Shown piece after piece: positions 31,908 through 57,444 of a DNA stretch of 64,000 nucleotides. Origin of the DNA: a bacterium. GTDB taxonomy: Bacteria > Lernaellota > Lernaellaia > JACKCT01. The translations under genes were made by a program, and so were the position numbers. How positions within the stretch are numbered: position 1 is the stretch's first letter; each line of letters opens with the position of its first letter. The notes under the pieces were generated by a model. It saw nothing but the letters and a program-made list of their open reading frames with translations, was not told where the DNA came from and searched no databases. The stretch is from the NCBI GenBank assembly GCA_019912885.1, contig JAIOHV010000080.1:1-64000 (forward strand), given 5' to 3'.

Positions 31908-33539
31908 TCAGCATCCGCATCCATCGTCATCGTCATTGTCGTCGTCGTCCGTAGCATCGTCGTCACCGGCGTCGTCATCGGCCGCATCGTCATCGTCGCT
32001 CGTATCGTCATCCGCCGCGTCGTCGTCGCTCACGGAGTCGTCGTCCGTCGAGTCGTCATCATCGTCCGAATCGTCGTCCGTCGCGTCATCGTCGGTATCG
32101 TCATCGACCGTGTCGTCATCGGCGCTGTCGTCATCGGCGGAGTCGTCGTCGTCATCGTCGTCGCCGGTCAGGTCGTCGTCGCCGAGCGGTCCCGCGTCGC
32201 CGAGGATTCCATAGTACACCGCGTACCAATAGCTGAGCAGGTAATCGAGGCTCGGCCCGGTTTCGGTGGGTGTATCGGCTTCGGAGCACGCGATGTGATA
32301 CGGGCTGCGCTCCCACAGGTGTGAGGTCCAGCAGCGGTCGTCCACCTCGTGCGCCTCGGCCGTCTGCGGGTCAATGTCGAAAATGTCTTCCAGCCAGGGG
32401 TACTGCGACAGGAAATTATCGGCCCACACCGAAAACGGATCGAGCGGCAGCACGGAGCAGTCCACGTGCCGCTTGTAGTTCGGCGGATCCCAGAAAACGG
32501 TCAGCCCGTGTTCGATGTCGTCGGCGATCGCGTCGAGTTCATCCTGGTCGCAATCCCCAAGACGAAGGCATGTCTGGATGTAGATCGCGTCGAACAAAGC
32601 GGCGTGCGTTCCTTCGACCATCGATCGGACGTTGACGTTGAAAATGCGGTTCAGGTGTTCGAGCCGCTCGCGGTCCGGCCACAGGCGGTGGATCGCGTTC
32701 CACACCGGGTGGTTGTTGATGAACGCGAAATACTCGAAGTACTTGTTGAAAAACGTGAAGGTCGAAAACCACATCAGGTTCTTGACCTTCTCGTATTCCG
32801 AATCGAGCAGCGCCCAGTACGCCGGATCGCCGGTCACGTGCGCGACTTGCAGGATGATCGACAGGCGGATGTCGTGCCCGATGCTCGACGCGGGCCATGT
32901 GTCGCCCCACGGGTCGATGATCGTCCAGTTGTTCGCGACGAGCGTGTCGATCACCTCGCGGAAGTCCGCCTCGATCGTGGCGCGCATCGCGGCGTCGTCC
33001 ACCAGGTCGTGCGCCCAGGTCTGGCTCCAGAACCAGGTGATGTATTTGTCGCGCGACTGCCGCCCCACCCAGAACGCGCCCGCGTAGTCCCCCTCGCCGG
33101 GGATCTTGTTATCGGAGCCCTCGAACTCCACATTCCACGGCGCCTCGTCCGGCGCGACGTAGCGTGCGATGTAGCCCGGGTCGCCGGTGACCTTATGGAC
33201 GTGGTGGAGATACTCCGCGATGCGCAAAACCTCGGCGCGCGCGTCGGCCGCGCCGGTGACGGCGTAACGCATCGCCTGCGTCACGAGGTAAAAGCCCGTC
33301 CAGTCCTCGCTGTCGCCCGCGCCTTTGGTGCGCAAAAGCTCCGTGCGCGTTTCGTCCGTGAAGATGCGATCCGACACGCCGCCCATCCCGCCGCTATGCC
33401 ACTGGCGCAGAAAATCCTCGTAGTCCGCGGTCTTGGCCACGAGGTACGGGTCGACGCCGGTTTGGGCGAAGGCCGCGGGGGCGAGCGCGAAGAAAACGGT
33501 CGCCAGAGCCGCAAAAAAAATCGCTTTCGAATTGTTCAT
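31908..33539 (-). CDS. Secreted protein with C-terminal Asp-rich tail ending GCGC
   Basis: 543 residues from ATG at 33539 (AGGAATCG upstream). Cleavable signal peptide (1-25, APAAFAQTG). Residues about 28-460 form one helical, Trp/Tyr-rich domain without a recognised family; repeated paired helices resemble an alpha/alpha toroid (as in polysaccharide lyases or glycosidases), a cautious suggestion. From about residue 466 the chain is almost only Asp with Ala, Ser, Thr and Val for about 75 residues, and ends D-G-C-G-C. No transmembrane segment follows, unlike known C-terminal sorting tags such as MYXO-CTERM. The cysteine end is shared with genes at 40524 and 55201. Confidence 0.75.
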   Translation of the reverse strand: MNNSKAIFFAALATVFFALAPAAFAQTGVDPYLVAKTADYEDFLRQWHSGGMGGVSDRIFTDETRTELLRTKGAGDSEDWTGFYLVTQAMRYAVTGAADARAEVLRIAEYLHHVHKVTGDPGYIARYVAPDEAPWNVEFEGSDNKIPGEGDYAGAFWVGRQSRDKYITWFWSQTWAHDLVDDAAMRATIEADFREVIDTLVANNWTIIDPWGDTWPASSIGHDIRLSIILQVAHVTGDPAYWALLDSEYEKVKNLMWFSTFTFFNKYFEYFAFINNHPVWNAIHRLWPDRERLEHLNRIFNVNVRSMVEGTHAALFDAIYIQTCLRLGDCDQDELDAIADDIEHGLTVFWDPPNYKRHVDCSVLPLDPFSVWADNFLSQYPWLEDIFDIDPQTAEAHEVDDRCWTSHLWERSPYHIACSEADTPTETGPSLDYLLSYWYAVYYGILGDAGPLGDDDLTGDDDDDDDSADDDSADDDTVDDDTDDDATDDDSDDDDDSTDDDSVSDDDAADDDTSDDDDAADDDAGDDDATDDDDNDDDDGCGC

Positions 33540-33859
33540 CGATTCCTCAAAGTCAATGCCTGTTTCGCGCGACGTCATCCTGAGCGAAGCGAAGGATCGG
33601 GCCGTACCTTGCTGACGGCCACGCTTTCCGCAAACGGCCACGCTTCATCCGGGGCGAAGCCGGATCCTTCGGCTCGCTGCGCTCGCCTCAGGATGACGAT
33701 TCCACGCGACGTGAAGGAACGGACATCCTGATTCGCAGCGTCGCAGAATAGCGGAAACCGCGAGTTCGAGCACCACGCTCGCTTGACAACCCCTTCGCCG
33801 CGCGGCACACAACCCGGTCGCCGTATCGCGCACTTTCGCGCCGGCAAACGGGGGCGGGC
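33540..33859. repeat. Intergenic region with inverted copies of the stem-loop repeat
   Basis: 320 bp without a gene. 33574-33598 is a reverse-orientation copy of the ATCCTTCGC repeat; 33662-33697 is a longer forward variant with extra GGCTCGCTGCG. Between them ACGGCCACGCTT occurs twice (33616 and 33637). The last 150 bp have no clear signal besides the esterase start region. Confidence 0.8.
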
Positions 33860-34633
33860 ATGGGCCACGTTCACATCATCCGCGACTTCTTCTCGATCCC
33901 CGAGGGCTACAACCGGACGATCCGCATCTACACGCCGAACGCGTACGACGCGGAACCCGACCGCCGCTTTCCCGTGCTCTATTTCCAGGACGGGCAGAAC
34001 GCGTTTGCGCATCCGGAGTCGGCCGTCTATCACACCTGGTGCGCGAACGACGTCATCGAGCGCCTTGCCGCCGAGGGCGCGACCGAACCGTGGATCATCG
34101 TTGCTATCGACCACGGCGTGCAGCGCTTCGAGGAATATTCGCCCTGGGACGATTACGCTGTCGGCGTGCAAGGGCGCGGATCGTACTACACCGACTTCCT
34201 GGTCAATCACCTCGTCCCGTACATCGACGCGACCTACCGCACGCGCCCGGAGCCGCAATGGCGCGGCACGATCGGCGCGAGCCTCGGCGGGCTGATCTCG
34301 CTTTTCGTCGGCTGGCGGCATCCGGATGTCTTCGGGCGCGTCGGCGGCGTATCGCCGTCATTGATGTGGTGCCAGGGGTGGATGTTCAGTTCGTGGAAGG
34401 AACACTCCCGGAAATGGACGCGCATCTACCTGGATGCCGGCGAAAACGAGCGCGTGGACTGGGCGGGCGTCGATCTGGACTACGGCAACACCGTGCGCAA
34501 TTTCCACGACCACCTGCGTTCGATCGGCTATGCGGCGCACGAGGTGCACATGGTTATCGAGCCACACGGCAATCACCATGAGATCGACTGGCAGCGGCGA
34601 TTGCCGGAAGCGCTGCGCTGGCTGCTGGGGTGA
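33860..34633 (+). CDS. Esterase D-family (IroE/Fes-like) alpha/beta hydrolase
   Basis: 257 residues. The oxyanion region LYFQDGQNAF, nucleophile elbow G139-A-S141-L-G-G and C-terminal His (PHGNHHEIDW) match the putative esterase/enterochelin-esterase-like family (COG2382/COG2819). No signal peptide, so cytoplasmic. Substrates in the family range from siderophore esters to acetyl esters; the sequence does not decide. Convergent with the ATP-grasp gene, separated by inverted heptamer arrays. Confidence 0.85.
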   Translation: MGHVHIIRDFFSIPEGYNRTIRIYTPNAYDAEPDRRFPVLYFQDGQNAFAHPESAVYHTWCANDVIERLAAEGATEPWIIVAIDHGVQRFEEYSPWDDYAVGVQGRGSYYTDFLVNHLVPYIDATYRTRPEPQWRGTIGASLGGLISLFVGWRHPDVFGRVGGVSPSLMWCQGWMFSSWKEHSRKWTRIYLDAGENERVDWAGVDLDYGNTVRNFHDHLRSIGYAAHEVHMVIEPHGNHHEIDWQRRLPEALRWLLG

Positions 34634-34638
34634 AATTG

Positions 34639-34777
34639 AAGATTGCAGATCGAAGATTGAAGATTGGCCGTCGCGTTTCGGGCCGGCCGCGCGTCCTGGC
34701 AGACGCGCCGCGCGATCCGTCGGCCATCGCGCCTGTGCCGGAAATTCTTCAATCTTCAATCTTCCATCTTCAATCCT
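34639..34777. repeat. Inverted pair of four-unit heptamer arrays between convergent genes
   Basis: Left array 34639-34666: AAGATTG, CAGATCG, AAGATTG, AAGATTG. Right array 34750-34777: CAATCTT, CAATCTT, CCATCTT, CAATCCT, in the opposite orientation. They enclose 83 bp and could pair as a 28-bp stem. The right array provides the TGA stop codon (34770-34772) of the ATP-grasp gene; the left array starts 5 bp after the esterase stop. Confidence 0.9.
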
Positions 34778-35933
34778 CCACCTCCTCAATAAACGCAATC
34801 ACCTCCCTCAACACCTCCTCGTCCTGCATCCGCACCAGGTACATCTCGTCGCCCATCGCCTCGGAGAACACCGAGGGCATGTCGCGGTGCAGGATGACCG
34901 CGTCGCCGAATCGTTCGCGGATTTCGCCATCCGTGCGCGCGTAGCGTCGATCGCGCCGGCGGGAGACGTTCGCGCAGAGATACTTTCGCTCGAACGCGAA
35001 GTCTGACACGTCTTTGCCGCAAATCATCCGCGCCCAGAGGTCGTACACATCGATGTCGCTCGCGTAATTCATCATGTCCGTCGTGAAACCGCCGGGCGGA
35101 CGGACGTTGATCTCGAGCGCGCGGAACTTTCCGCCGGCCTCCTCGAAAAACTCGAGGTGGAAAAAGCGCCCCTTGAGTGCGAACGCCTTTACGGCCTTTC
35201 GCCCAAGCTCGCGCATGAGCGGGGGAATTTCGCGGCGCGAGTAATAGTGCATCGGCAGACGCTGGTTGACGATATCCATGATGCCCGCGCTGTACACGTG
35301 CGAGGTCTCGTAGACGATGTGGCCCGCGTCGTCCACGAGCCCGTCGTAGCTGCCGAGCCGCCCGGTGATAAACGCCTCCACGACGTATCCCGTCAGGTCG
35401 GTCGCAAGCGCGCTCGCCAGCTCGTCGTCGTTTGTCAGCTTGAAGGTGCGCGCCGCACCGACGCCCTGATCGGGCTTGAGGACCACCGGGTAGCCATGCC
35501 CTTTCACGAACGCGCGCAGACCCGCTTCGCCGGCATACGGCTCACCGATGCTGCACGGCACGCCGGCCTTTTTGAACACCTCGCGCATGTGCGTCTTCGA
35601 GCGGTACTTCGGCAGGTCCTCGGGTTTCAAGCCGGGGATGTTGAAATCCTCGCGCAGGTGCGCCTCCGCCGCGAGCCAATGCTCGTTCAGGGAATCCAGG
35701 CGATCGATCTTGCCGTGCTTGTGAACAAGAAACGCCAGCGCCCGCAACAGCGCGTCGCCCTCGTTCATGTTCGGCACGAAGTAGTAGTCGGCCAGCGCGC
35801 GGCGCAGCTCGTCGCGAAGGTTCGTGGACGGTGCGTCGCCGATGCCAAGGATATTGCCGCCGTTTTTTCGCACCGCCTCGCAGAACAGGTAGTACTGCGG
35901 CGGAAAATGCGGCGAGAGAAAGACGATGTTCAA
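34770..35933 (-). CDS. ATP-grasp carboxylate-amine ligase-like protein
   Basis: 387 residues from TTG at 35933 (GGAGG seven bases upstream; longer frames run through repeats). Starts N-I-V-F-L-S-P-H-F-P-P, a pre-ATP-grasp Rossmann-like domain (1-105); ATP-grasp motifs follow: GYPVVLKPDQGVGAA (about 150), E-x-x-x-x-G lid (VEAFITGRLGSYDG) and the metal site HLEFFEE...EINVRPPGG. Such enzymes activate a carboxylate as acyl phosphate and join it to an amine or thiol. No substrate genes are adjacent. It ends ...E-D-stop, with GAGGATTGA supplied by the heptamer array. Confidence 0.85.
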   Translation of the reverse strand: MNIVFLSPHFPPQYYLFCEAVRKNGGNILGIGDAPSTNLRDELRRALADYYFVPNMNEGDALLRALAFLVHKHGKIDRLDSLNEHWLAAEAHLREDFNIPGLKPEDLPKYRSKTHMREVFKKAGVPCSIGEPYAGEAGLRAFVKGHGYPVVLKPDQGVGAARTFKLTNDDELASALATDLTGYVVEAFITGRLGSYDGLVDDAGHIVYETSHVYSAGIMDIVNQRLPMHYYSRREIPPLMRELGRKAVKAFALKGRFFHLEFFEEAGGKFRALEINVRPPGGFTTDMMNYASDIDVYDLWARMICGKDVSDFAFERKYLCANVSRRRDRRYARTDGEIRERFGDAVILHRDMPSVFSEAMGDEMYLVRMQDEEVLREVIAFIEEVED

Positions 35934-36048
35934 AGGGGCGCCTCCGGCGTAAGGCTTCCGGACTCCGGAGATCGGCGACCGCAAAATGCGTTCAACACAA
36001 AGCCCCAAAAAACACAAAACGCACGACGCGCATGATTTCGCTCCGAAA

Positions 36049-36109
36049 CTTCGTGCCCTTGGTGTCTTCGTGTTGAAAGACGCGATTCAAATCCGAAATC
36101 CGAAATTGC
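36049..36109. repeat. 29-bp dispersed repeat plus AAATCCG heptamers upstream of mtnE
   Basis: 36049-36077 matches 25322-25350 at 26 of 29 positions. 36089-36109 is AAATCCG, AAATCCG, AAATTGC. An inverted partner of the first (TTCAACACAAA) lies near 35992. The rest of 35934-36198 holds no gene. Confidence 0.8.
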
Positions 36110-36198
36110 ATTGATCGCCACGATTCTTGGGAAACACTCCCGGCCGGTCAAGCGCCTGATTTGACAGGCCTTTCCCGCCGGGCGGATACTTGGCGGTC

Positions 36199-37362: not shown

Positions 37363-37380
37363 ACGCGAAGGGGGATCATC

Positions 37381-37920: not shown

Positions 37921-37933
37921 TTTCGCGTCACGC

Positions 37934-40361: not shown

Positions 40362-40375
40362 TCGTTTTTCCGCGC

Positions 40376-40437: not shown

Positions 40438-40523
40438 GGGCAAGCGCGTTTGCCGTTTGCCGATGCAATGGCCATTTCGCATTCCGTGGTATTCTTCCGC
40501 GATTCAAATTCCCGGGGGTGGCC

Positions 40524-43500
40524 GTGCGTTCTTGCGTTCGTCGTTTGGGTTATCGCGTCGCGTTGGCATTGGTTTTTGCTGTCGCCGGATTCGCGGCATC
40601 CGCCGCGCCGGCGAGCGCGCTTGGCCTTGTCGCGCAATGGCCGACGCTCGACACCTGGGAGCACCGCACGGCGTGGCCGGTGTTCGCGGTGTTCGACGCG
40701 GGGGTTGATCCGGCGACCGTGAACGGCTCGTCGCTTTTCGTTTCGCCGGCGGGTGCGCCCGGCAGCCCGATCGCCGGGACGATATCGGTGGAGACGACGA
40801 ACGTCGCGGATGACACCGTCATTTTCACGCCGGACGATCGCCTGACTCTCGGCGCGCCGTACATACTCCAAATCACGACGGACATCGAGACTCCCGGCGA
40901 CGATCCATTTGACGGCGTCGTTCCCGGTGGCGGCATGTTTGTCTCGAACGTGCCGATGGACCTGGAGCGCCCGGATTACGATCCGCTCAATCCGTTCGGC
41001 CTGTTCGTCAATTCCAACGTGTTGCCGGGATTCGACGTGGTCGATCCGGAATCGACGGACCCCGACAAACCCTGGACGATCCCCGGCATGGGCGCGACCC
41101 AGGCGTGGAAACTCACAACCGGCCGGCCGGATGTCGTGATTGCGATCATCGACAACGGCCTTGCGCTCTACAACAACCGCGAAATCGCGGACCGGCTCTT
41201 TTTGAACGTCGGCGAATTGCCGATGCCGCAGGACGGCGGCACGCCGTGCGGCACGTACGACTGCAACGGCGACGGCCGCGTCGCGGCGTCCGACTACGCG
41301 AACGATCCGCGCGTGCCCGCGCCGCCGCCGGCCTATCCGCTTTCGCCCGCGGAGCTTTTGGCCGCGTTCGCGGACGGCGTGGATAACGACGGCAACGGCT
41401 ACGCGGACGACATCAGCGGGTGGGACTTTTTTCGAAACACTCCCGACGCGATCGGCATCGACGAGTGGCCGGAGGGCGCGCACGGCGACGACCGCGCCAA
41501 GGACGCCTGCGCCATGGCCGACAACGACGAGGGCGACAAGCCGGGATTTTGCCCGAATTGCACCGTCCTTCCGATCCGCGTCGCGGACGCGATTCTCGCC
41601 TCGCACAATCAGGTGGGGCAGGGCGTGCGTTATGCGTCGATGATGGGGGCGCAGGTCGGCGTGGCCGCGTCCGGCACGCCGGATTACAACCGCGATATCG
41701 AGGACATCATCGCCGCCGCGCACGACGGCGGCATGTTGCTCGTCGCGGCGGCGGGTGATGAACTCGGCTTTCACCACTCCTATCCCGCCGGCGGCGAGGA
41801 CGTGCTTTCCGTCAAATCGATCTTCCCGATGCCGAACGTCGAGCTGTTCGACTTCTTCCCGATCAACCTCATCGCCTACACGGAAACGTATTGCACGAAC
41901 TACAACGAACACGTTCACCTGGCCGGCGCGTCGGGCGCGTGTTCGTCGGAGGCGACCGGAAACGTCGGCGGCGCCGCGGGGCTCATCTTGTCCCGCGCGT
42001 ATGACCTTGGCATCGACCTGTCTCCGAACGAGGTGAAGCAGATACTCATCAAGTCCGCGGACGACATCGCCAACCGGTGCGTTACGTTGACGGGCGGCGG
42101 ATGCCAGCCGGGATTCGATCGCCATTTCGGATACGGGCGGCCGAACCTTGCCCGCGCGATGGAAATGCTCGGCGACGGCCTGGACGCGCTTATACCCCCC
42201 GAGGTGCGTATCACGAGCCCGCGCTGGTGGGCGCTCGTCGACGCCGCGCAATCGACGCAGGTTTCGATCGAGGCGTTTATCCACGCGCGCGGCGACGATT
42301 TTGATTTCGTCGTCGAGGCCGCCGTCGGCCCGGAACCGCTCGGCGCCGAGTTCGTCGAGATCGCCTCCGGTTCCGGCAGCTCGCCGGTCACGGGCGTCGT
42401 CGCGACGCTGGATCTGACGGCGTTTTTTTCCGATGCCGAACTTCGCGGCCCGACGGCGGACCCGGACGATCACACGATCACCCTGCGCGTCCGCGCCACG
42501 TCGGAAACGGGCGCCCAGGGCGAGGATCGCAAGGCGATCGCCGCCTACACCGACGACGATCCGGCTTCCGGATGGCTGCCGGGAACGCCGTTTGATCTTG
42601 CCGCATCCGGCGAAAGCTCACCCGCGCTCTACGACCTGGATGGGCGCGACGGCGGGCTGCTGGAAATCATCTTCGGAACCACGAACGGCAAGATCGAGGT
42701 GTTCGGCTGGGACGAGGCCGCGGGGAAATACGCGCGCCGGCCCGGCTTCCCTGTGAACATCCAGGACGACTCCGGTCCGTACGAATTCGACTTCGCGCTT
42801 GCCTCGCCCGCCGTCGCGGACCTGTACGGCGACGGCGTGCCGTACATCGTTACCGCGTCCGGCGGAGGGCGCGTCTTCGCCATCCACCCGAACGGCAATC
42901 TGCACACGGACGAAAACGGCGATCCCGATCCGTTCCTCGACGGCTTCCCGTACGTCGTCCCCAAACCCGATTCGACAACGCCCAAGGGCTTCGGGCACGG
43001 CAACGCGTTTGCCGCCTCGCCCGTCGTTGCGGATTTGAACGGCGACGGCGTGATGGAAATTATCGCCGCGAACTTCCAGGCGAAGATCTTCGTCATTACC
43101 GTGTTCGACGCGAAATCCGGCGCGAAGGGAGGCGACCACCCGGGATTCCCGGTCGCGGCGCTCTCAACGGCGGGCACCGTGCCGGCGAATCTCGTTTGCA
43201 AGGACGACGGCGGCGACCCCGTCGAGGGCATCCAGATCCTCGGCACACCCGCGGTCGGCATTCTCGATCCGTCGTCCGCGGACCCGGCGCTTTCGCGATT
43301 CCCCAGTATCGTCGTGCCGACGACGGAGGTTTGCTACGACGGTGCGAGGAAGACCGGGCGCCTGTACGCGATCCGCCACGACGGCAACGCGGGCGGCGGC
43401 TCGCCGTTCCACGTCGGCTGGCCGCTTGCGCTTCCCGCGCCGCTCGCCGACGCCCTGCCGATACCGCCGCTGACCTCCGGCATCACCGCCGCGCCGGCGA

Positions 43501-44588
43501 TGATGCACGACGGCGCCCGCACGGTGATCGGCACGGGCGCGTTCGCGTATCTGCCGCAGCTCGTCACCGTCGAAAACGGCGTCATCAACACGCAGACGCT
43601 GCCCGCCAATTTTTCGGTCAACATCTCCGGGCACGGCGCGTTTGATCGCGTGACGCCGGGCGGCGATATCCACTATGCGCTGCCCACGACATCCGCCGTC
43701 AAGGGCGTGGACGGCTGGCTGAGCCTTCTTCGTCCCTTGCTGCTGGCATGGAATCTCGACGGCCCGACGCTCGAGCCGATCTTCTCGGCGAACCTGGAGG
43801 ACATCAATTTCTACGTCGCGCCGATCTTCGCCGACGTTTCGGGCGATGGCGTGCGCGAGGTGGTCGCCGGTAGCTCGGGCTTCATGCTTCACGCGGTTTC
43901 GCCGGACGGCACCGAACCCGCGGGCTGGCCGAAATACACCTTCAACTGGATGATCGCCTCGTCGGTCGCCGGCGACGTGGACAACGACGGCTCGCTGGAT
44001 GTTTTCCAGACGACGCACGAAGGCCAGCTCTTCGGCTGGCGCACGCCGGGCGCGGCGTGCCTTGAGGGCGAGCTCAATTCCGGCTGGCGGCGATTCCACC
44101 ACGACGAACGCAACACGGGCGTGCTCGGCACGGACACGGCGCCGCCGGGCGTCATTCTGGATTTTACGCGCAACGCCGCGCCGAACGGCGGCACGCGCCT
44201 GCGTTTCGACGCGCCGGGCGACGACTGGTATTGCGGCGCGGCGGCGGGATACGACATTCGTGTCGGGGACGATCCGGACGCGTTGCTGACGCCCGAGGGA
44301 TTTCTCGCGGCCCAGGTCGTCGCCAACGACCTGCAACCGAAAAACGCCGGCATTCTGGAGCAGCTCGACGTGGACTCCGAATCGCCCGACCGCCACTACG
44401 CGATTCGCGCGATCGACGATGCGGGCAACCTCGGCCACATTGCGTTCGCGTCGCCGGCCGGCGCGGGCGATGACGACGACGATGCGGATGACGATGATTT
44501 CAATGACGACGATGACGCGGCGGACGACGATGCCGCGGTCGGCGGCGATGACGACGATGACGATGACGGCGGGTGTTGCGGCTGTTAA
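40524..44588 (+). CDS. Secreted subtilase-like (S8) protein with FG-GAP repeats and Asp-rich CCGC tail
   Basis: 1354 residues from GTG at 40524 (GGGGG five bases upstream). Signal peptide 1-32. Residues 36-140 are an Ig-like domain; 190-570 an S8 fold with Asp D210 (I-I-D-N-G), His H320 (G-A-H-G-D-D) and Ser S475 (S-S-E-A-T-G-N-V-G-G). The oxyanion Asn is replaced by D412 (A-A-A-G-D-E-L-G) and the HGTHxAG and GTSMAxP motifs are eroded, so activity is doubtful. About 690-1200 are VCBS/FG-GAP beta-propeller-like repeats (V-A-D-L-N-G-D-G-V-M-E-I). The last ~45 residues are Asp-rich, ending D-G-G-C-C-G-C. Predicted to be surface-displayed. Confidence 0.82.
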   Translation: MRSCVRRLGYRVALALVFAVAGFAASAAPASALGLVAQWPTLDTWEHRTAWPVFAVFDAGVDPATVNGSSLFVSPAGAPGSPIAGTISVETTNVADDTVIFTPDDRLTLGAPYILQITTDIETPGDDPFDGVVPGGGMFVSNVPMDLERPDYDPLNPFGLFVNSNVLPGFDVVDPESTDPDKPWTIPGMGATQAWKLTTGRPDVVIAIIDNGLALYNNREIADRLFLNVGELPMPQDGGTPCGTYDCNGDGRVAASDYANDPRVPAPPPAYPLSPAELLAAFADGVDNDGNGYADDISGWDFFRNTPDAIGIDEWPEGAHGDDRAKDACAMADNDEGDKPGFCPNCTVLPIRVADAILASHNQVGQGVRYASMMGAQVGVAASGTPDYNRDIEDIIAAAHDGGMLLVAAAGDELGFHHSYPAGGEDVLSVKSIFPMPNVELFDFFPINLIAYTETYCTNYNEHVHLAGASGACSSEATGNVGGAAGLILSRAYDLGIDLSPNEVKQILIKSADDIANRCVTLTGGGCQPGFDRHFGYGRPNLARAMEMLGDGLDALIPPEVRITSPRWWALVDAAQSTQVSIEAFIHARGDDFDFVVEAAVGPEPLGAEFVEIASGSGSSPVTGVVATLDLTAFFSDAELRGPTADPDDHTITLRVRATSETGAQGEDRKAIAAYTDDDPASGWLPGTPFDLAASGESSPALYDLDGRDGGLLEIIFGTTNGKIEVFGWDEAAGKYARRPGFPVNIQDDSGPYEFDFALASPAVADLYGDGVPYIVTASGGGRVFAIHPNGNLHTDENGDPDPFLDGFPYVVPKPDSTTPKGFGHGNAFAASPVVADLNGDGVMEIIAANFQAKIFVITVFDAKSGAKGGDHPGFPVAALSTAGTVPANLVCKDDGGDPVEGIQILGTPAVGILDPSSADPALSRFPSIVVPTTEVCYDGARKTGRLYAIRHDGNAGGGSPFHVGWPLALPAPLADALPIPPLTSGITAAPAMMHDGARTVIGTGAFAYLPQLVTVENGVINTQTLPANFSVNISGHGAFDRVTPGGDIHYALPTTSAVKGVDGWLSLLRPLLLAWNLDGPTLEPIFSANLEDINFYVAPIFADVSGDGVREVVAGSSGFMLHAVSPDGTEPAGWPKYTFNWMIASSVAGDVDNDGSLDVFQTTHEGQLFGWRTPGAACLEGELNSGWRRFHHDERNTGVLGTDTAPPGVILDFTRNAAPNGGTRLRFDAPGDDWYCGAAAGYDIRVGDDPDALLTPEGFLAAQVVANDLQPKNAGILEQLDVDSESPDRHYAIRAIDDAGNLGHIAFASPAGAGDDDDDADDDDFNDDDDAADDDAAVGGDDDDDDDGGCCGC

Positions 44589-44624: not shown

Positions 44625-45431
44625 ATGGATGCGCGGATGATCGGGACGATTCAACGCGCGATGGCGCTTTTTGCCGTCGCGCTTTCGGTTTTTGCGTTTG
44701 TTTTCGTGGCCAGTTGCGGCGACGACGACGATGACGATGACGCCGACGATAATTCGGATGACGACGCCGATGACGTGACGTGGGTCGCGCTGACAGGCGG
44801 CACGTTCCTCATGGGCTGCAAGGACGAGGACCAGTGGTGCGAAATCGGCGACGGCGAATTTCCGCAACACGAGGTGACGATTGGTCCGTTCGAGCTGATG
44901 GCGACCGAAGTGACGCAAGAGCTTTACGCCGAAATCACCGGGCTCGAGCCGAGCTACTTCGAGGACTGCCCGCAATGCCCCGTCGAAAACGTCACCTGGG
45001 ATGACGCGGTCGCCTTTTGCGAGCAGCTTGGCGGGCGCCTGCCGACCGAAGCCGAGTGGGAATTTGCCGCGTGGGGCGGCGTGGATACGCTGTATTACTG
45101 CGGCAACGACGAGCAGTGCGTTGACGACATCGCCTGGCACTCGCAAAACTCATACGGAAAAACGCACCCCATCCGCCAAAAAACGCCGAACGACTACGGT
45201 CTGTACGACATGCTCGGCAACGTCTTCGAGTGGGTCGAGGACTGGTTTGACGCGGAGTACTACGCGAACTCGCCGGCAGAGAACCCGACCGGCCCCGCGT
45301 CGGGCGAAACGAAAGTGATTCGCGGCGGAAGCTGGCTTTTTCATTACCAGGGACCGCTTCGTGCGTCGTGCCGCGAGGCGAATGATCCGGATACTCCGCG
45401 ATCGAACGTCGGGTTTCGCTGCGCGCGCTGA
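44625..45431 (+). CDS. Asp-tethered lipoprotein with SUMF1/FGE-like domain
   Basis: 268 residues. Signal peptide with lipobox V-A-S-C31, then G and an Asp-rich tether (33-52). Residues 54-268 are a single FGE-sulfatase domain with R-L-P-T-E-A-E-W-E-F, N-D-Y-G-L-Y-D-M-L-G-N-V-F-E-W and a final G-F-R-C-A-R. The segment for the catalytic Cys pair (R-G-G-S-W-L-F-H-Y-Q) has none, so it is not a formylglycine generator. It follows the subtilase-like gene by 36 bp and may be co-transcribed. Ribosome site AAAGGA close to the ATG. Confidence 0.88.
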   Translation: MDARMIGTIQRAMALFAVALSVFAFVFVASCGDDDDDDDADDNSDDDADDVTWVALTGGTFLMGCKDEDQWCEIGDGEFPQHEVTIGPFELMATEVTQELYAEITGLEPSYFEDCPQCPVENVTWDDAVAFCEQLGGRLPTEAEWEFAAWGGVDTLYYCGNDEQCVDDIAWHSQNSYGKTHPIRQKTPNDYGLYDMLGNVFEWVEDWFDAEYYANSPAENPTGPASGETKVIRGGSWLFHYQGPLRASCREANDPDTPRSNVGFRCAR

Positions 45432-46992: not shown

Positions 46993-47018
46993 CCGGTGTA
47001 TTTCGCAAGGAGAACACG

Positions 47019-49556: not shown

Positions 49557-49587
49557 GAAAATACGGCCCCCGAACCCGGAGGCGTCC

Positions 49588-50913
49588 ATGCGTGCCGCGG
49601 TCCTCCTTTTGTCGCTCGCTTTTCCTTTGCTCGCCGGCTGTTCTTGTGGTGACGACGATGATGACGACGGCGCCGCGTTCGACGACGACTCGGCGTTGGA
49701 CGACGATCAGGATGACGATGATACGTCAGGCGATGACGACAGCGATGACGACGCTGCCGCAGACGACGACGACGCCGATGATGATAATGCGATTGACGAT
49801 GACGACGCCGACGACGACGACGCCATCGACGACGATGCGGGAGACGACGACGCCATTGATGACGATGCGGTCGATGACGACGCCGTCGATGACGATACCG
49901 GAGACGACGATGCGGTTGATGACGATACCGGAGACGACGACACAACGCCCGCCGCGCTTGCGATCGATTCCGTCGATCCCGCGGCCGGCGGCGCGTCGGT
50001 AGCGACGCTCGTCACGATCGAAGGCGATGGTTTTATTGCCGGGATCGAGGTGTACGTCGGTACGGAGGCGGCGACCAACATCGTCGTCGTGTCCGCGACC
50101 GAGTTGCACGCGACCTTCCCGCCGATCGAACTCTCGCGGCGCGGCGCGAAGGACGTGCGCGTCGTGCGCGGAGCGGATGAGGCGACGCGGGCGGGCGGAT
50201 TCGAATATCTATTCGACGAAGATCCTGTTGTCATGGTGCATGGCTTGTGGGGGCAGGGCGCTGATTTCGACAAGATGAAGGAGCGATTCGTTGCCCTCGG
50301 ATATCCGGCCGATCAGCTTTTCGCCATCGACTTCACGGACGATCAGGCGTCGAGCCGCAAGAACGCGCGCTACGAGCTGCCGCCGTTTGTCGATGACGTG
50401 CTGGCGCAAACGGGCGCGGAAAAAGTCGATCTGATTTCGCACAGCATGGGCGGGCTCGCCGCGCGGCTCTACATCAAGACGTACGGCGGCGCGGACAAGG
50501 TGCGCGACTACGTTTCCATCTCCGGCACGCAGCACGGCAACAACCTGTCGTGCCCGTTCATCTGGCTCGACGACGGTCCCGCGGAGCTTTGCCCCGCCTA
50601 CGCGAACCAGAATCAGAGCGAAAACGAGGTGCAGTGGGAGCTGAACGGCGACCCGGATTCCGCGGACGTGGACGAAACACCGTTCGGGCGCGACGAGAGC
50701 GGCGGCCTGTCGTATCACGCGCTCTACACGACCGCGGATCTCATCATCTCCCCGTCGACGTCCGGGTGCCTGGATCAGGCGTCGCGCAATGACTGCACCT
50801 CGCCGATCAACCAACGCGTCGACGGCGTCGGTCACATCGCGATGGTTTACGACGCGGGCGTGTTCGATGATGTCGCGGCCTGGGTGCGCGCATACAACGT
50901 CAGCAAGCCATAA
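49588..50913 (+). CDS. Asp-tethered lipoprotein: IPT/TIG domain plus lipase-type alpha/beta hydrolase
   Basis: 441 residues. Lipobox L-L-A-G-C18, S-C-G, then an exceptionally long Asp tether (21-118, about 98 residues with D-D-D every few positions). Residues 121-208 form an IPT/TIG Ig-like domain (SVDPAAGGASVATLVTIEGDGF). Residues 212-441 are a lipase/EstA-type hydrolase with oxyanion V-H-G-L-W-G, nucleophile S-H-S286-M-G-G and a likely catalytic His in V-G-H-I. It would be held away from the membrane by the tether, suiting extracellular esters. Convergent with the next gene, 1 bp apart. Confidence 0.88.
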   Translation: MRAAVLLLSLAFPLLAGCSCGDDDDDDGAAFDDDSALDDDQDDDDTSGDDDSDDDAAADDDDADDDNAIDDDDADDDDAIDDDAGDDDAIDDDAVDDDAVDDDTGDDDAVDDDTGDDDTTPAALAIDSVDPAAGGASVATLVTIEGDGFIAGIEVYVGTEAATNIVVVSATELHATFPPIELSRRGAKDVRVVRGADEATRAGGFEYLFDEDPVVMVHGLWGQGADFDKMKERFVALGYPADQLFAIDFTDDQASSRKNARYELPPFVDDVLAQTGAEKVDLISHSMGGLAARLYIKTYGGADKVRDYVSISGTQHGNNLSCPFIWLDDGPAELCPAYANQNQSENEVQWELNGDPDSADVDETPFGRDESGGLSYHALYTTADLIISPSTSGCLDQASRNDCTSPINQRVDGVGHIAMVYDAGVFDDVAAWVRAYNVSKP

Positions 50914-50914
50914 G

Positions 50915-52345
50915 CTACTCGAACACCACGATCGCCACGCCTTCGCTTTCGCTTTTGATCGTCGGCACCATCATCGTGCGTCCGTTGAATTCGAACGCCA
51001 CGGAGCGGCGCGGCGTCGTCGGGATGCGCAAGTCGAAACCAGCGAGAAATGCAATCACGTCAAACACCGCCGCCGGTTGCAGGTCGCTTTCGTCGTTGAA
51101 GTTCACGTCGAACAGGAAGATCGCGATCGCGGTTTTTTCCGCGGGCGTCAGCTCCTCGGTCGAGATCTCGTTGCCGTCAACGACAAGCGAATCGCGGCCA
51201 TGCACGATCGCCTGGTTGGTCGTGAAATTCGCGAACACCGCCTCCTCGTCGGAAAATTCGATCACCGAGAGGATGATCCCCGGCAGGCTGCCCGGATCGG
51301 GGAACGTGCGGATGTAAACAAGCGGATTCGAGGCGGCAAACGGCTCGCGATAATAGTGAACGGGAATCTCCGGCGAGCCCTCGTTCCAGGCGGCAAACTC
51401 GTGCGGCACGCCCGCGCGCACGGGCATTGGCCCGAATCGCCCTTCCGGATCCGACACGGTCGCCTCAACGAGGCTCGCGCGCTCGCCCGTCGCCGGGTCA
51501 AGCTCGTACACACGCACCTCGTATCCGTAACGCGGCGTGTTCGTGCCCAAAACGAGCACACGCCCGTTGACGACGATCTCGTCTTCCGGCTGGATTTCGG
51601 CGGTCGCGGGCGCGGCGCCGTCGTGGAAAAACGTGTACATCAGTTCGAACGTTTCCTCGCTTGTCGCCACCTGCATGTGATCCTTGCCGTCGATCTCGAC
51701 GTTCGTCGCGCCGTCAAGCGGACGCACGCCAAGGATCAAGTCGTCCTCGGAGGCGATCGTCATCGTTGGTACGCCGTCGGGCGCCGCGCCGTAGTCGAAC
51801 GACGCCACGTGAACGTAGTGAGCGACCTTCGCTCGATGATCCGCCGATCGGAGATAGTCGTACGACAATCCGCCGCCCGCCGAATGGCCGACCAGGTCGA
51901 TCGCCTCGAAGCCCGAGTCGGCAAGCACATCGTCGATGAACGCGGCAAAGCGCGCCTGTTCCGCGTCCTCGTCAAACGCGAGCGTGTTCCAGTCGAACGC
52001 GTGAAGGTTCCGCGGGCAGTGGCCGTTTTGGGAAAATCGCATCAATTGATTGGCGAACGTGTCGCCCGCGGCCAGAAACCCGTGCGCGAAAACAATCGGG
52101 CGCGCATCCGAGACGCACTCCTGCGAATCGTCGTCGTCGCCGTCGTCGTCGTCATCCGTCGCGTCGTCGTCCGTCGCATCGTCATCGTCCGCGTCGCCGT
52201 CGGTGTCATCGTCCACCGCGTCGTCGTCCGGCGGTGTCGCATTGTCATCGTCGTCGTCATTGTCACCGCACGAGCAACCGGCGACGGCAAACGACATCGC
52301 GGCGAGGATCAACAATATCGCGACCAACAACGTCTTACGGTTCAA
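50915..52345 (-). CDS. Asp-tethered lipoprotein with alpha/beta hydrolase domain
   Basis: 476 residues from TTG at 52345 (AAGGAG seven bases upstream, inside the end of the previous gene). Lipobox V-A-G-C, then S-C-G and an Asp/Ala/Thr tether of about 50 residues. The hydrolase has P-I-V-F-A-H-G-F and G-H-S-A-G-G-G (Ser nucleophile), an H-M-Q-V-A late His region and a beta-rich C-terminal domain of about 220 residues. Likely an extracellular esterase, lipase or PHB-depolymerase-like enzyme. It overlaps the upstream gene by 11 bp. Confidence 0.84.
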   Translation of the reverse strand: MNRKTLLVAILLILAAMSFAVAGCSCGDNDDDDDNATPPDDDAVDDDTDGDADDDDATDDDATDDDDDGDDDDSQECVSDARPIVFAHGFLAAGDTFANQLMRFSQNGHCPRNLHAFDWNTLAFDEDAEQARFAAFIDDVLADSGFEAIDLVGHSAGGGLSYDYLRSADHRAKVAHYVHVASFDYGAAPDGVPTMTIASEDDLILGVRPLDGATNVEIDGKDHMQVATSEETFELMYTFFHDGAAPATAEIQPEDEIVVNGRVLVLGTNTPRYGYEVRVYELDPATGERASLVEATVSDPEGRFGPMPVRAGVPHEFAAWNEGSPEIPVHYYREPFAASNPLVYIRTFPDPGSLPGIILSVIEFSDEEAVFANFTTNQAIVHGRDSLVVDGNEISTEELTPAEKTAIAIFLFDVNFNDESDLQPAAVFDVIAFLAGFDLRIPTTPRRSVAFEFNGRTMMVPTIKSESEGVAIVVFE

Positions 52346-53282: not shown

Positions 53283-53307
53283 TCTTCAATCCTCAATTTT
53301 CAATCCT
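53280..53307. repeat. Heptamer array of four units joining two genes
   Basis: CAATCTT, CAATCCT, CAATTTT, CAATCCT. On the minus strand it gives the stop codon of the sulfatase gene (53300-53302) and lies across the start of the DUF3108-like gene. Confidence 0.9.
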
Positions 53308-54958
53308 CAAGGGGATCGTCCTCGTCGTAGCGGCAAAAGCGCCCGGCGCAATGCCGCAGGCGCTCCAGAATATCCGAAAACAGCGTGCGCTGCGCCACGC
53401 GCCCGGCGGACATGTCCTTGTGCAGGCTTTCGATCTGATACGGATCGACATCCAGGTCGTAGAATTCGTATTGCGTCTGGAACCACGGCGTAACGGTCTC
53501 CACGTACAGGGCGCCCGCCGGCAGGCCGGTTCGCGGAAATTCGCGCACGCCGGCGTGGGTCGCCAGGTCGCCGAACGGATCGTTGATCGCCCAGTGCTCC
53601 ACCAGAAGCCGCCGCCGCGTCCATTCCGCGTCGCCGGCCCCAAGCAGCGGCGCAAGAGAGCGCCCATCCATGTCGATGGGGTCCTCCAGCCCGGCGTATT
53701 CCAGGATCGTCGGCGCCAGGTCGTTGTTCAGGACGATCTCCTCGCGCTCCATTTCCTCGACGCCTCCGGGCGGCCGAATCGCCAGCGGGACGCGGATCGA
53801 TGGCTCGTACGGCGCGCCTTTTTGCGGAACGCGGTGCTTTCCGAACTGAAACCCGTTGTCGGATGCGAAGATGAACAGCGTGTTCTCAAGCCGCCCATAT
53901 TCCTTGAGCGCGCTTCCGACCGCTCCGATGAGATCGTCAACGGACAAGAGCGCCTCCTGCCGGTCGTTGAACGCCCGGGCGACGCTCGCGCGATCCTCGT
54001 CGCTGAGTTTGGGCCAGAAACGGATCGGAAACGGCTTGTCGCTCATGTCCTCCTCGCTCACCGAGGGTGGCCACGCCGGCTCCAGATTCAGGACGCCCGT
54101 GTGCCGAGGCGCGGGCCGGATGGAAAGCGCATAAACGTCGTGCATGGTGTTGCGCTCGTCGTCCCACCAGTCATCGAGAAACTCGTTGTGCGGCGCCGTG
54201 ACGGAAACCCAGAGAAACATCGGCTGTCCCGGCCGCGCGAGCGCCGACTCGCGGATGAAATCGACGGCGCGCTCGGCGAGCACGTCCGTCTGGTAGTCCT
54301 CCGGCGCGTCGCCGTAATACACGACGCGACCGTTGTCGTTCAGCTTGTAGTTGTAAACGAGATACGTCGAGGGATCGATCAGCACCTGCCAGTCGTCCCA
54401 TCCGGGCGGAACGTACGTCGCGGATGTCGATGCGCCGTAGCCGTTGAGATATTTGCCGACCAGGCCCGTTCGATATCCGCCGTCTTGAAGGATCGTCGCA
54501 AGCGTCACCTCGTCCTCGAATTTGTTCACGCCGCCCCGAGGCCGGTTGTTGTTGAGCACACCGTGGTTGTGCGAGTACTGCCCCGTCAGGAACGTCGCCC
54601 GCGCCGGGCAGCAAATCGCGTTGGTCACAAACGAATTGAGAAAATTGACGCCCCGGTCCGCGATGAACCGCTCCAGATTGGGCGTCAGTCCGTTTCCGCG
54701 AAGCTGGTCGTAGGATTCAAGCTCCTGGTCGTCGGTCATGATGACGACGATATCCGGCCGGGGATCGGGCGGCGTGTCGCGATCGTCGTCGGTTGGAGCC
54801 GGGGTGGCCGGCGCGTCGTCATCGCCGTCATCGCCGCTTGAGCTGTCCGTGCATCCGGGCGCCGTCGCCGCGACGATCGCGATGAAGGCGATGGAAACGG
54901 CAAGCGCAAAAAACACACGAATCCGCGCGCCCGGTCGAGCGCCGAAGGGGGCTGGCAT
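53300..54958 (-). CDS. Cys-type sulfatase lipoprotein
   Basis: 552 residues from ATG at 54958 (GGAGGG ten bases upstream). Lipobox T-A-P-G-C36 followed by S-S-S-G-D-D-G-D-D-D and a short Asp/Pro linker. Type I sulfatase fold: D76-D77 metal site, the formylglycine motif C116-C-P-A-R120 followed by A-T-F-L-T-G, and later N-D-L-A-P-T-I-L-E-Y. C116 must be converted to formylglycine by an FGE or anSME encoded elsewhere. Substrate is probably a sulfated polysaccharide or mucin; the closest family resemblance is N-sulphoglucosamine-6-sulfatase type. Confidence 0.92.
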   Translation of the reverse strand: MPAPFGARPGARIRVFFALAVSIAFIAIVAATAPGCTDSSSGDDGDDDAPATPAPTDDDRDTPPDPRPDIVVIMTDDQELESYDQLRGNGLTPNLERFIADRGVNFLNSFVTNAICCPARATFLTGQYSHNHGVLNNNRPRGGVNKFEDEVTLATILQDGGYRTGLVGKYLNGYGASTSATYVPPGWDDWQVLIDPSTYLVYNYKLNDNGRVVYYGDAPEDYQTDVLAERAVDFIRESALARPGQPMFLWVSVTAPHNEFLDDWWDDERNTMHDVYALSIRPAPRHTGVLNLEPAWPPSVSEEDMSDKPFPIRFWPKLSDEDRASVARAFNDRQEALLSVDDLIGAVGSALKEYGRLENTLFIFASDNGFQFGKHRVPQKGAPYEPSIRVPLAIRPPGGVEEMEREEIVLNNDLAPTILEYAGLEDPIDMDGRSLAPLLGAGDAEWTRRRLLVEHWAINDPFGDLATHAGVREFPRTGLPAGALYVETVTPWFQTQYEFYDLDVDPYQIESLHKDMSAGRVAQRTLFSDILERLRHCAGRFCRYDEDDPLED

Positions 54959-55102
54959 CGGCGGGGTACCCTCCATGAAACGAAGCAAAACATGAAATCG
55001 TTCCGCATGGCGGGCGACGCGATCGCCCGCGGCGGCGCAACGAACCAAATAATGCGTTTCGGGGGCCCGACGCCGCGCGCGGCGCGTTGCGCTCCCCGAC
55101 CC

Positions 55103-55127
55103 GATAATGATAAACGAGAATGATATC
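55103..55127. promoter_or_regulatory. Fur-like box of GATAAT-type hexamers
   Basis: GATAAT, GATAAA, (C), GAGAAT, GATATC. The first 19 bp match the Fur consensus at 13 of 19 positions. It lies in the divergent region, 73 bp upstream of the Cys-rich secreted protein gene and 145 bp upstream of the sulfatase gene. The rest of 54959-55200 has no clear gene or repeat. Confidence 0.45.
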
Positions 55128-55200
55128 GATGGGAAAATCTCGCGGCGAGCCCGGCGTGCGCCCCGTGGGTGCCGGAAACCGGCGCCGCACCATGTGAGGG

Positions 55201-57444
55201 ATGAAAACAATGATGCGCGGATTTGGCTTGACGGCGCGCCTTCGTGCCGGACGGGTGTTGCTGGCTTGCGCGATATTGGTCTTGTCGTTCGCCGCGCCGC
55301 GCGCCGCCCAGGCGCAGGCGGACGTTCCGCGAACGGTCTTCGCGATCGCGTCCATCAATTCCGGGCCGCTGCGCTATCCGATTCATGTTTTCGCCATTAA
55401 CGGCAACCAACTCGAATTCTCCGACGAGTTTCGCCCGGACGTCCGTGACGGCGGCCCCGTCGGGCTCGCGGTCGATCCGTATTACGAGCACCTTTTTGTC
55501 ACCTACGAATTCAGCAATAAGGTCGACGCCTACGACGCGCGCGACGCCACGCCGCTCGGGCAGATCACGCTGTCGGGGACAAGCGACCTATCGGGCATCG
55601 ACGTGCTCGAATCGCGCAACCAGCTTTTCGTCGTCGATCGCACCGAAAAGGATATTTTCGTCTTCGACACGCAGACATTCGCACCGGTCACGACGTGGGT
55701 GCTGCCGACCGGCCAGGGCGCCTACGATATCGAAGTCTTCGATGACTATCAGGGCGCGGATGTCATCTTCGTCACCGACGGCACGAACACCGTCCGCTGG
55801 TACGACGTCGATACGCACCAACAAATTGGATCGGCCACGCAGTCGCGCATCGCCAAGAGCCTTGGCGTCAACGTGGAAAGCGACGCGGTGATCTTTTCCG
55901 CCTCGATCGGCGTTCATACCGGCGACACGCCGCCGCAGGCCGGCGGACACGATTATCTGGTCAAGTACAACACGGCGAACTCGCAGCAGAACGAGGTTGA
56001 TCTCGGGGATTCCGGCCGCGGCATCGCGGTGAACGCGCACGACAATGTCGTGTACGTTTCGATCGGCCGTTACAGCACCGGCATCTTCCAGTGGGTGCCC
56101 GCGAGCGTCCGCACATTCAACATGACGACGCTCGCCGAAGTCGACCGCGATGACCTGACCTCGCAGTCGTGCCCCGGCAATGTTGAATGCAGCCCGACCG
56201 ACGTCGTGGTGACGCGCGTCGCCTACGGCAGCGAGCTGACCAAGGAAGTCCTCTCGCATCCTTCAGGCGAATTCAACATCGGCGCCAACGTGACATTCCG
56301 CGTCACGATCCGCAACGCGGGCGCGCGCGCGATCGACATCATGCCGTTGACGGATACCTACGATACGACGCAATTGCGTTACGTCAGCTCGAGCCCAGCG
56401 TCGAACGACAACATCGATGATGGCCGGATCAACTGGAGCGACCTGACCGCATCGTTCGGCAACAACCTCGCGCCGGGCGCGTCATTCCAGGTTGACGTCA
56501 CTTTCGTCGCCGACCCGGACGCCTGCAACGATTTCGTCGACGGGACGAATCTCTCCTCGATGACAAACGCGAAGGACGATCTGGGCGGCGCGGTCGCGGA
56601 TGCGGCCGGCACGGTCGGGTATCGCATCCTTTGCGATTGCACCACGGACAACGATTGCACCGATGGTGTCTTTTGCAACGGCGCGGAAAAATGCATCCTC
56701 AATGAGTGCCAACCCGGCACGCCGCCTTGCACGGATGACGGCCTGTATTGCAACGGCGCCGAAAACTGCAACGAGGCCACCGACTCGTGTACGAACTCGG
56801 GGAACCCCTGTTCGAACGACGGTGTGTTCTGCAACGGTACCGAAAGCTGCGTCGAATCGACCGACTCCTGCGCGAGTTCCGGCAATCCATGCGGCGACGA
56901 TCTCTTCTGCAACGGCAACGAGACCTGCAACGAGAACAGCGACCAGTGCGTGTCGGGTACGCCGCCGTGCGCGGATGACGGCCTGTTCTGCAACGGCGTC
57001 GAATCCTGCAACGAAGCGTCGGATGCCTGCGCCTCGTCCGGCCCTCCGTGTTCGGATGACGGCCAGTTTTGCAATGGCACCGAGTCGTGCAACGAGGACG
57101 CCGATTCCTGCCCCTCATCCGGCGATCCCTGCTCGGACGACGGCCAGTTTTGCAACGGCGCCGAATTCTGCGACGAGCTGGCGAACGAGTGCCGCAGCAA
57201 CGGCAATCCGTGTCCCGAGGGACAGGCCTGTCTCGAGGACGCCAACACATGCGAGCCGCCGGATTTCGGCGATGACGACATTGACGACGACGTGACGCCC
57301 GATGATGACGTGGACGACGATCCGCCCGCGTCCGACGACGACGACGAGCAGGACGCCGACCCGAACATTCCGACGGGCGACGAGGAAGAAGGACCCGGTT
57401 GGCCGGAGGGCGATGTGACCGGGGGAAACTGCTGCGGTTGCTGA
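55201..57444 (+). CDS. Secreted beta-propeller protein with Cys-rich repeats and NCCGC C-terminus
   Basis: 747 residues. Signal peptide ends A-A-Q-A-Q-A (about 41). Residues 45-340 are a beta-propeller-like (YncE-like) domain; 355-465 a DUF11-like domain (NVTFRVTIRNAGARAIDI). Residues about 490-675 are seven tandem units of about 25 residues, each with D-D-G-x-F-C-N-G-x-E-x-C-N-E and a fixed Cys pattern. The end is Asp/Pro/Glu-rich and closes V-T-G-G-N-C-C-G-C. The Cys ladders probably form disulphides in the periplasm or outside. GAGGG precedes the ATG. Confidence 0.82.
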   Translation: MKTMMRGFGLTARLRAGRVLLACAILVLSFAAPRAAQAQADVPRTVFAIASINSGPLRYPIHVFAINGNQLEFSDEFRPDVRDGGPVGLAVDPYYEHLFVTYEFSNKVDAYDARDATPLGQITLSGTSDLSGIDVLESRNQLFVVDRTEKDIFVFDTQTFAPVTTWVLPTGQGAYDIEVFDDYQGADVIFVTDGTNTVRWYDVDTHQQIGSATQSRIAKSLGVNVESDAVIFSASIGVHTGDTPPQAGGHDYLVKYNTANSQQNEVDLGDSGRGIAVNAHDNVVYVSIGRYSTGIFQWVPASVRTFNMTTLAEVDRDDLTSQSCPGNVECSPTDVVVTRVAYGSELTKEVLSHPSGEFNIGANVTFRVTIRNAGARAIDIMPLTDTYDTTQLRYVSSSPASNDNIDDGRINWSDLTASFGNNLAPGASFQVDVTFVADPDACNDFVDGTNLSSMTNAKDDLGGAVADAAGTVGYRILCDCTTDNDCTDGVFCNGAEKCILNECQPGTPPCTDDGLYCNGAENCNEATDSCTNSGNPCSNDGVFCNGTESCVESTDSCASSGNPCGDDLFCNGNETCNENSDQCVSGTPPCADDGLFCNGVESCNEASDACASSGPPCSDDGQFCNGTESCNEDADSCPSSGDPCSDDGQFCNGAEFCDELANECRSNGNPCPEGQACLEDANTCEPPDFGDDDIDDDVTPDDDVDDDPPASDDDDEQDADPNIPTGDEEEGPGWPEGDVTGGNCCGC

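Follow-up and report, generated by a model that had tools for sequence, protein, structure and literature searches.

All tripartite C-terminal sorting signals known so far depend on a membrane helix, which keeps the substrate in place during enzyme action. The closest described system is MYXO-CTERM, for which a model of lipidation followed by cleavage after the cysteine has been put forward: its Cys residues are required for cleavage, and TraA lacking the MYXO-CTERM is exported by the T2SS and released into the medium (PMC11980579). At the opposite end of the protein chain, C-SDDDD has been described as a surface-export signal in Bacteroides fragilis lipoproteins (PMC5080379). The window analysed here, a bacterial DNA stretch of 64,000 nucleotides within which all coordinates are positions, encodes three proteins which end in a related signature, but without the helix:

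31908 to 33641, minus strand: P0001, tagged protein; SPI-type signal peptide, helical domain of unknown function, Asp-rich tail and GCGC at the stop (from the translation)
31908 to 32180, minus strand: P0001 tail; 90-residue (DDDxx)n run, then DDDDGCGC and stop (counted from the translation)
40518 to 44588, plus strand: P0002, tagged protein; signal peptide, subtilase domain, FG-GAP repeats and GGCCGC at the stop (translation and Pfam)
44469 to 44588, plus strand: P0002 tail; Asp-run, then DDDDDDDGGCCGC and stop (from the translation)
55201 to 57444, plus strand: P0003, tagged protein; signal peptide, probable beta-propeller, Cys-rich repeats and GGNCCGC at the stop (translation and Pfam)
57271 to 57444, plus strand: P0003 tail; Asp-rich stretch, then GPGWPEGDVTGGNCCGC and stop (from the translation)

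The translations bear out the sequence-only reading that first drew attention to these reading frames, according to which they end in GCGC, CCGC and NCCGC, with neither a hydrophobic segment nor a basic end after the tag. The C-termini read ...DDDDNDDDDGCGC for P0001 (31908-33641, minus strand), whose likely start is MNNSKAIFF at about 33539, ...GGDDDDDDDGGCCGC for P0002 (40518-44588, plus strand) and ...GDVTGGNCCGC for P0003 (55201-57444, plus strand), each directly followed by a stop; in tails of the P0003 type, Asp is sparse near the terminal Cys. The protein bodies are unrelated, as had also been claimed: P0002 combines a subtilase with FG-GAP repeats, while Pfam searches gave no match for P0001 and no confident one for P0003.

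The tag is by no means confined to these three proteins. In a 454-kb genome sample, in which the window and a few regions close to already known tags are included, CxC ends were found in 7 of 383 called genes against 0.046 expected, starts and counts being approximate because a simple home-made codon model was used for gene calling. Genome-wide, CCGC directly before a stop occurs 41 times, as compared with 9 for the reversed pattern. From the window's genome, examined by searches and sampled stretches only, about 83 Asp-rich ends of the ...CxC type were recovered, belonging to at least 39 unrelated families. The view that exported proteins throughout the genome carry a C-terminal tag is upheld. 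Ends in CGG, CGS, CGN, CGR and CGK are also present, within the phylum there are single-Cys variants (GGCG, SACGG, GCGL), and cysteine is otherwise rare in the sample (about 1.1%). Proteases, phosphatases and propellers are abundant in the tagged cargo, whose bodies match families which elsewhere are anchored by other means, such as the myxosortase-dependent M36 proteases (NF038112), choice-of-anchor J proteins, LPXTG-anchored proteins and T9SS-dependent proteases; no LPXTG, PEP-CTERM or GlyGly-CTERM tag appeared among the 25 NCBIfam families listed for 47 tagged proteins.

Several trivial origins were discarded. Chance or composition is ruled out by the CxC excess, the CCGC-stop counts and the scan of other genomes. 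Read-through of the stops uncovers no hidden helix, 7 of 124 tagged genes giving a candidate segment as against 47 of 1106 control genes, mostly representing the start of the next gene, and recoding of TGA is ruled out by the use of all three stops, with nothing helix-like downstream.

Furthermore, the tag is present in all seven genomes, from seven genera, of this small phylum, each of which encodes dozens of unrelated exported proteins bearing it, and its conservation across the phylum extends over at least 39 families. Homologues of P0001 occur in 7/7 genomes, and all 11 that were checked end in the Cys tag; Cys-tagged homologues of P0002 were likewise found in the seven genomes. Absence of the end motif from orthologues, which had been named as the observation that would tell against the tag, is thus not what the relatives of P0001 and P0002 display: across the seven genomes both retain the terminal Cys motif, whereas their Asp-runs have drifted apart. 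Ends in relatives include CCG, CCE, CCGSD and GCGL, so the Cys near the end is fixed and the last residue is not, and the comparison of orthologues already suggests that the codons for the terminal Cys are under purifying selection. Paralogue-like P0003 ends (GEVTGGNCCGC, GAVTGGACCGC) are found in the window's genome, and similar ones (GEVTGGCCGCSF, GEVSGGCCGI) in a relative, G002. Outside the phylum, 379 genomes yielded single stray matches only, and the eight loci that were read proved not to be genes or not to be stops. Among 84,980 species, DDDGCCGC before a stop gave one match, out of coding frame, in a scan which covers this single tag form and says little about the phylum itself, as close relatives may be absent from it.

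The claim that the tag is separate from known ones found no support. Full MYXO-CTERM ends of the phylum consist of an Asp-run and GCGC, then a helix and Arg, as in G002 (DDDDDDDGCGCSVTGG-helix-RRSR) and G005 (DDDDDDDDGCGCVIGG-helix-RKKR), and homologous proteins bear either end: in the window's genome, a subtilase ends in GGCGC-helix-RR, while a 46% identical paralogue (419 aa) ends in DDDDDDGGSCGC and a stop. Such full MYXO-CTERM proteins number one in this genome and 0-4 per genome in the phylum. In sequence, the tag is equal to the MYXO-CTERM signature as far as the conserved cysteine, and it looks like this signal minus the membrane helix; an end in CGC is the proposed product of myxosortase. 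In alignment, the invariant MYXO-CTERM Cys corresponds to the second one of CGC, whereas the helix-free tag keeps the first one better; with the TIGR03901 model, P0001-P0003 gave no match at E values up to 1. Mrt_core matches were obtained in 6/7 genomes, weakly in that of the window (69 bits, cut-off 100), and G001 carries the tag, although neither a myxosortase nor a MYXO-CTERM match was found in it.

In addition, the window contains lipoproteins whose predicted N-terminal tethers are mirror images of the tag, two of them lying immediately downstream of tagged genes:

27904 to 30507, minus strand: lipoprotein, mature N-terminus C-S-C-G-DDDDDDD, mirroring the C-terminal tag
44625 to 45431, plus strand: lipoprotein, tether mirroring the tag, with a lipobox followed by C-G-DDDDDDD; 36 bases downstream of P0002
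47019 to 48122, plus strand: lipoprotein, mature N-terminus C-G-C-G-DDDDDD, mirroring the C-terminal tag
49588 to 50913, plus strand: lipoprotein, mature N-terminus C-S-C-G-DDDDDD, mirroring the C-terminal tag
50915 to 52312, minus strand: lipoprotein, mature N-terminus C-S-C-G-D, mirroring the C-terminal tag
57467 to 58681, plus strand: lipoprotein, N-terminal tether CSGCGDDDADD, 22 bases downstream of P0003

In 1.2 Mb there are 78 clear Asp-runs; a lipobox Cys precedes 36 of them, 20 adjoin the C-terminal tag, and the remainder are mostly continuations of these two classes. The tag and the N-terminal lipobox are mutually exclusive. Most tagged proteins have an SPI-type signal peptide, a classical lipobox being found in only 1 of the 38 that could be classified; the ratio of SPI to lipobox is 37:1 among them and 49:25 in the background (p=1e-4), counts being approximate because the classes rest on a simple rule. 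This rule demands a non-hydrophobic stretch after the Cys; a first, looser one gave p = 0.017.

Taken together, these observations make it somewhat likelier than an even chance that the Asp-run and terminal C(G)C form a tag for anchoring and sorting that lacks a membrane helix, is related to MYXO-CTERM and is probably lipidated on Cys. The tag would probably represent a new route of tethering to the cell surface, and modification of the Cys, already suggested by the sequence-only reading, is plausible, as the indirect evidence fits. After Sec export, the Asp-rich tail would hold the end flexible and exposed, and an enzyme acting on a soluble C-terminus would modify one terminal cysteine, most likely with a lipid, to give directly the form at which MYXO-CTERM proteins arrive only once they have been lipidated and cut by myxosortase. 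It would thereby hold the protein in a membrane, probably in the outer leaflet of the outer membrane, with the Asp-run as a surface spacer or export signal, as the mirror-image lipoproteins (lipid-C-x-C-G-DDDD) would suggest. Some points weigh against this model: the last residue of the tag varies (CGG, CGS, CGK, CCG), the first Cys of CGC is better kept than the one that aligns with MYXO-CTERM, and Lgt, proposed for MYXO-CTERM, normally modifies a cysteine adjoining a membrane segment, so a tag with no such segment would need either an enzyme beyond those known or an unusual Lgt. Extra Lgt-family paralogues, three per genome, are candidates; an operon link between them and tagged genes was discarded, two suggestive neighbourhoods being inconsistent over 21 loci. 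More tentatively, and at somewhat less than even odds, there may be a dedicated pathway in which exported proteins are lipidated on a C-terminal CC or CxC with neither membrane helix nor sortase-like cleavage, giving true C-terminal lipoproteins that mirror the N-terminal ones and provide a main means by which dozens of proteins are anchored at the surface.

Other explanations have to be weighed against such an anchor. The terminal CGC or CCGC could form mixed disulfides with a surface partner or serve as a small handle for redox reactions; CxC pairs show redox activity in model peptides and cysteine is scarce elsewhere in the genome sample, but single-Cys variants occur, and both MYXO-CTERM and the lipoprotein mirror images indicate anchoring instead, which leaves disulfide chemistry rather improbable. 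Binding of calcium or heavy metals by Asp-runs and cysteines would suit very acidic tails bearing thiols. It is nevertheless quite improbable, given that the Cys position is fixed while the Asp-run varies freely, that Asp is sparse close to the Cys in P0003-type tails and that Asp-runs elsewhere lie at lipid anchors.

The tail could also be a secretion signal with no anchoring, read by a system such as the T2SS, so that soluble enzymes would be released with no lipid. The lack of a membrane helix in P0001-P0003 agrees with this, as does a cargo typical of secreted enzymes, and since the T2SS sends helix-free TraA to the medium (PMC11980579), the missing helix could mean release; this reading is unlikely all the same, leaving unexplained the kept cysteines, the identity with the MYXO-CTERM anchor signature and the exclusion between tag and lipobox. 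Finally, the occurrence of an identical motif with and without the helix could point to a relic, a decayed MYXO-CTERM kept without function, which is highly improbable in view of some 83 copies in one genome, conservation in 7/7 genera, the failure of read-through to reveal helix remnants downstream and the tagged G001, with no MYXO-CTERM or myxosortase match.

A helix-free anchor of a few residues, spread through a phylum, would be a new solution to C-terminal sorting and would offer a simple rule for predicting the surface proteome of a little-known group. It may also inform which enzyme modifies the MYXO-CTERM cysteine, the predicted end product being directly encoded; in G001, with no detectable myxosortase, modification could perhaps be studied separately from cleavage.

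Among known systems, GlyGly-CTERM/rhombosortase, PEP-CTERM/exosortase and LPXTG/sortase likewise sort unrelated exported proteins by the C-terminus, but comprise a signature, a helix and a basic end, the last two of which are missing here. The T9SS C-terminal domains, Ig-like and of about 80 residues, have no membrane helix, contrary to the earlier statement that all known tags possess one; their ends differ from the Asp-runs of the tag, and P0001-P0003 gave no sorting-domain match in Pfam or NCBIfam. Rab GTPases of eukaryotes also end in CC or CxC without a helix and carry a lipid on Cys by prenylation, although they are cytosolic and the likeness is one of form only. The Bacteroidota lipoprotein export signal (C-x-K-(D/E)2, C-SDDDD) shares an acidic run adjoining a lipidated cysteine, here predicted, and a link to surface display, but it is N-terminal and needs Lgt and LspA, whereas the present tag is C-terminal and in reversed order. 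The nearest relative is MYXO-CTERM (TIGR03901)/MrtX, in which Sec-exported proteins bear the same Cys-containing GCGC signature C-terminally, preceded here by an acidic stretch, and homologous bodies bear either end. MYXO-CTERM continues into a membrane helix and an Arg-rich cytoplasmic end, whereas in the helix-free tag the stop follows the signature directly; the latter also occurs in G001, where no myxosortase match was found, and is present in dozens of proteins of the window's genome, as against one full MYXO-CTERM.

The C-terminal ends that the sequence-only reading assigned to three proteins of the window, namely a helical-domain protein (P0001), a subtilase with FG-GAP (P0002) and a probable beta-propeller with Cys repeats (P0003), match the translations exactly, and the tails preceding the Cys end are acidic and for the most part Asp-rich:

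31908-33641, minus strand: P0001, end GCGC after an acidic tail
40518-44588, plus strand: P0002, end GGCCGC after an acidic tail
55201-57444, plus strand: P0003, end GGNCCGC after an acidic tail

Such helix-free tags recur throughout the genome of the window (4.8 Mb, 230 contigs), where 41 CCGC-stop sites were counted against 9 for the reversed control pattern, and where in-frame reading of the CGC-stop sites yielded about 83 proteins whose Asp/Glu-rich tail closes with CxC. In a 454-kb sample, consisting for the most part of whole large contigs and covering also the window and some regions close to known tags, CxC ends occur in 7 of 383 genes, against 0.046 expected from Cys frequency. Seventy-five of the tagged proteins fall into 39 BLAST clusters, and the tagged bodies include subtilases, Kelch propellers, FG-GAP and PKD proteins, purple-acid-type phosphatases, and trypsin-like and metallo-peptidases. 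C-G-C and one Asp column are the only invariant positions in an alignment of 47 proteins which, the set having been picked for CGC ends, reveals only what else its members do not share.

The tag was found in all seven genomes of the phylum (seven genera, three families), with 139+39 pattern matches in the window's own genome, overlapping matches counted. G003 has the fewest, 9+4, and tags were seen there on direct reading. Of 379 genomes outside the phylum, only 12 had stray matches to a more stringent pattern, none of them a real protein end in the eight genomes whose loci were read, while a DDDGCCGC-stop scan of 84,980 species gave one match, outside any coding frame. Loss from orthologues, named earlier as the refutation of the proposed tag, was not observed: the 11 homologue loci of P0001 that were read all end in the Cys tag (a fragment in genome G002, whose second frame carries the end, is included), as do all 14 homologues of P0002 read with a complete end, and the split P0002 homologue of G002 likewise closes with DDDACCGC. 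Since the Asp-runs that connect the body to the end are free to vary among these homologues, the Cys end is, judging by the sequences, conserved on its own account. For P0003, the comparison covers tail-alike proteins already collected; those of its type have in common a longer, less Asp-rich end, GPGWPEG-V-TGG-CCGC (L150, L158, L094 and the window at 57444), with the variants CCGCSF or CCGI in G002.

The end is not strictly CGC: CGG, CGS, CGN, CGR and CGK also occur in the window's genome, and CCG, GGCG, CGCN, CCGI, CCGSD and CCE in relatives, so that recognition of one fixed terminal residue is unlikely. What stays constant is a Cys at one of the last five positions, mostly preceded by Gly, Ser, Ala or Cys.

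A mirror image of the tag is found in lipoproteins. Among 78 Asp-runs in 1.2 Mb from five genomes, 36 come after a lipobox Cys, C-S-C-G-DDDD and C-G-C-G-DDDD being frequent arrangements, and 20 directly adjoin the C-terminal tag, the remaining 22 being, on inspection, mostly second runs within either class. Moreover, 19 of 25 lipoproteins in an own-genome sample carry five or more Asp no further than 24 residues from the Cys. Tagged proteins carry export signals and practically exclude the lipobox, the ratio of signal peptides without lipobox to lipobox being 37 to 1, against 49 to 25 in the background (p = 1e-4; calls from a simple classifier). From these mirrored runs and the near-absence of the lipobox, the two ends look like alternative tethers built on one grammar of anchor cysteine(s), Gly and Asp spacer. 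In Bacteroidota, acidic residues beside the lipid Cys serve as a surface-export signal (PMC5080379). Lipoprotein genes with an Asp-run past the lipobox Cys lie on the same strand 36 bases downstream of P0002 (44588-44625) and 22 bases downstream of P0003 (57444-57467), and these two of the three tagged genes look as if co-expressed with their neighbours.

We infer that the tag Cys is modified, presumably by a lipid, which would place the proteins at the cell surface. An extra Lgt would be a candidate enzyme, although Lgt normally requires a membrane-inserted substrate. Each of the seven genomes has three Lgt-family loci (L252-L272; some fragmented in G002 and G003), most of which fall into three orthologous sets in a tree; a GCC(Y/H/F)G-type motif replaces the classical RxGNFxN in all readable sequences but one, and G003 has one classical copy. 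Gene neighbourhoods gave no consistent link between Lgt paralogues and tagged genes.

NCBIfam searches with P0001-P0003 gave no model for the tag as such, nor did the families listed for the 47 tagged proteins include one, and a literature search, with most subscription papers outside its reach, gave no description of a helix-free form. The chemistry behind the tag has a fair chance of being new.

TIGR03901, the model of MYXO-CTERM (the tripartite sorting tag of Cys signature, membrane helix and basic end), has one match in the window's genome and between 0 and 4 in each other genome, G001 alone having none. The MYXO-CTERM ends of G002 (e.g. DDDDDDDGCGC-SVTGGKASGFALPALMLMIGVFAYVLGLRRSR) and G005 (e.g. 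DDDDDDDDGCGC-VIGGGADGAGLAFAMLALGLAALAVSLRKKR) consist of the helix-free tag extended by a linker, a helix and a basic end, and both genomes also have small Cys-rich proteins, arranged in tandem, with an Asp-run and then a full MYXO-CTERM end (L283, G002:C25; L284, G005:C122). Homologous bodies carry either end, the MYXO-CTERM subtilase of the window's genome having a paralogue with DDDDDDGGSCGC-stop as its end and 46% identity over 419 residues. According to the published model (PMC11980579), the Cys of MYXO-CTERM receives a lipid, after which myxosortase cuts just past it; the predicted product ends ...GCGC, an end already encoded in the genes of the helix-free proteins. Proteins resembling myxosortase (Mrt_core, NF040914) occur in six of the seven genomes, weakly in that of the window, where a divergent CPBP protein (G000:C90:85959-86270; L169, L273) scores 69 bits to Mrt_core against a cut-off of 100; the sole MYXO-CTERM protein of that genome is the subtilase. 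Since G001 (99% complete) has plentiful helix-free tags and neither a myxosortase (Mrt_core, NF040914) nor a MYXO-CTERM match, the tag appears not to require myxosortase. Lacking helix, basic end and model match, it falls outside the MYXO-CTERM family, yet the likeliest reading is that it works like MYXO-CTERM.
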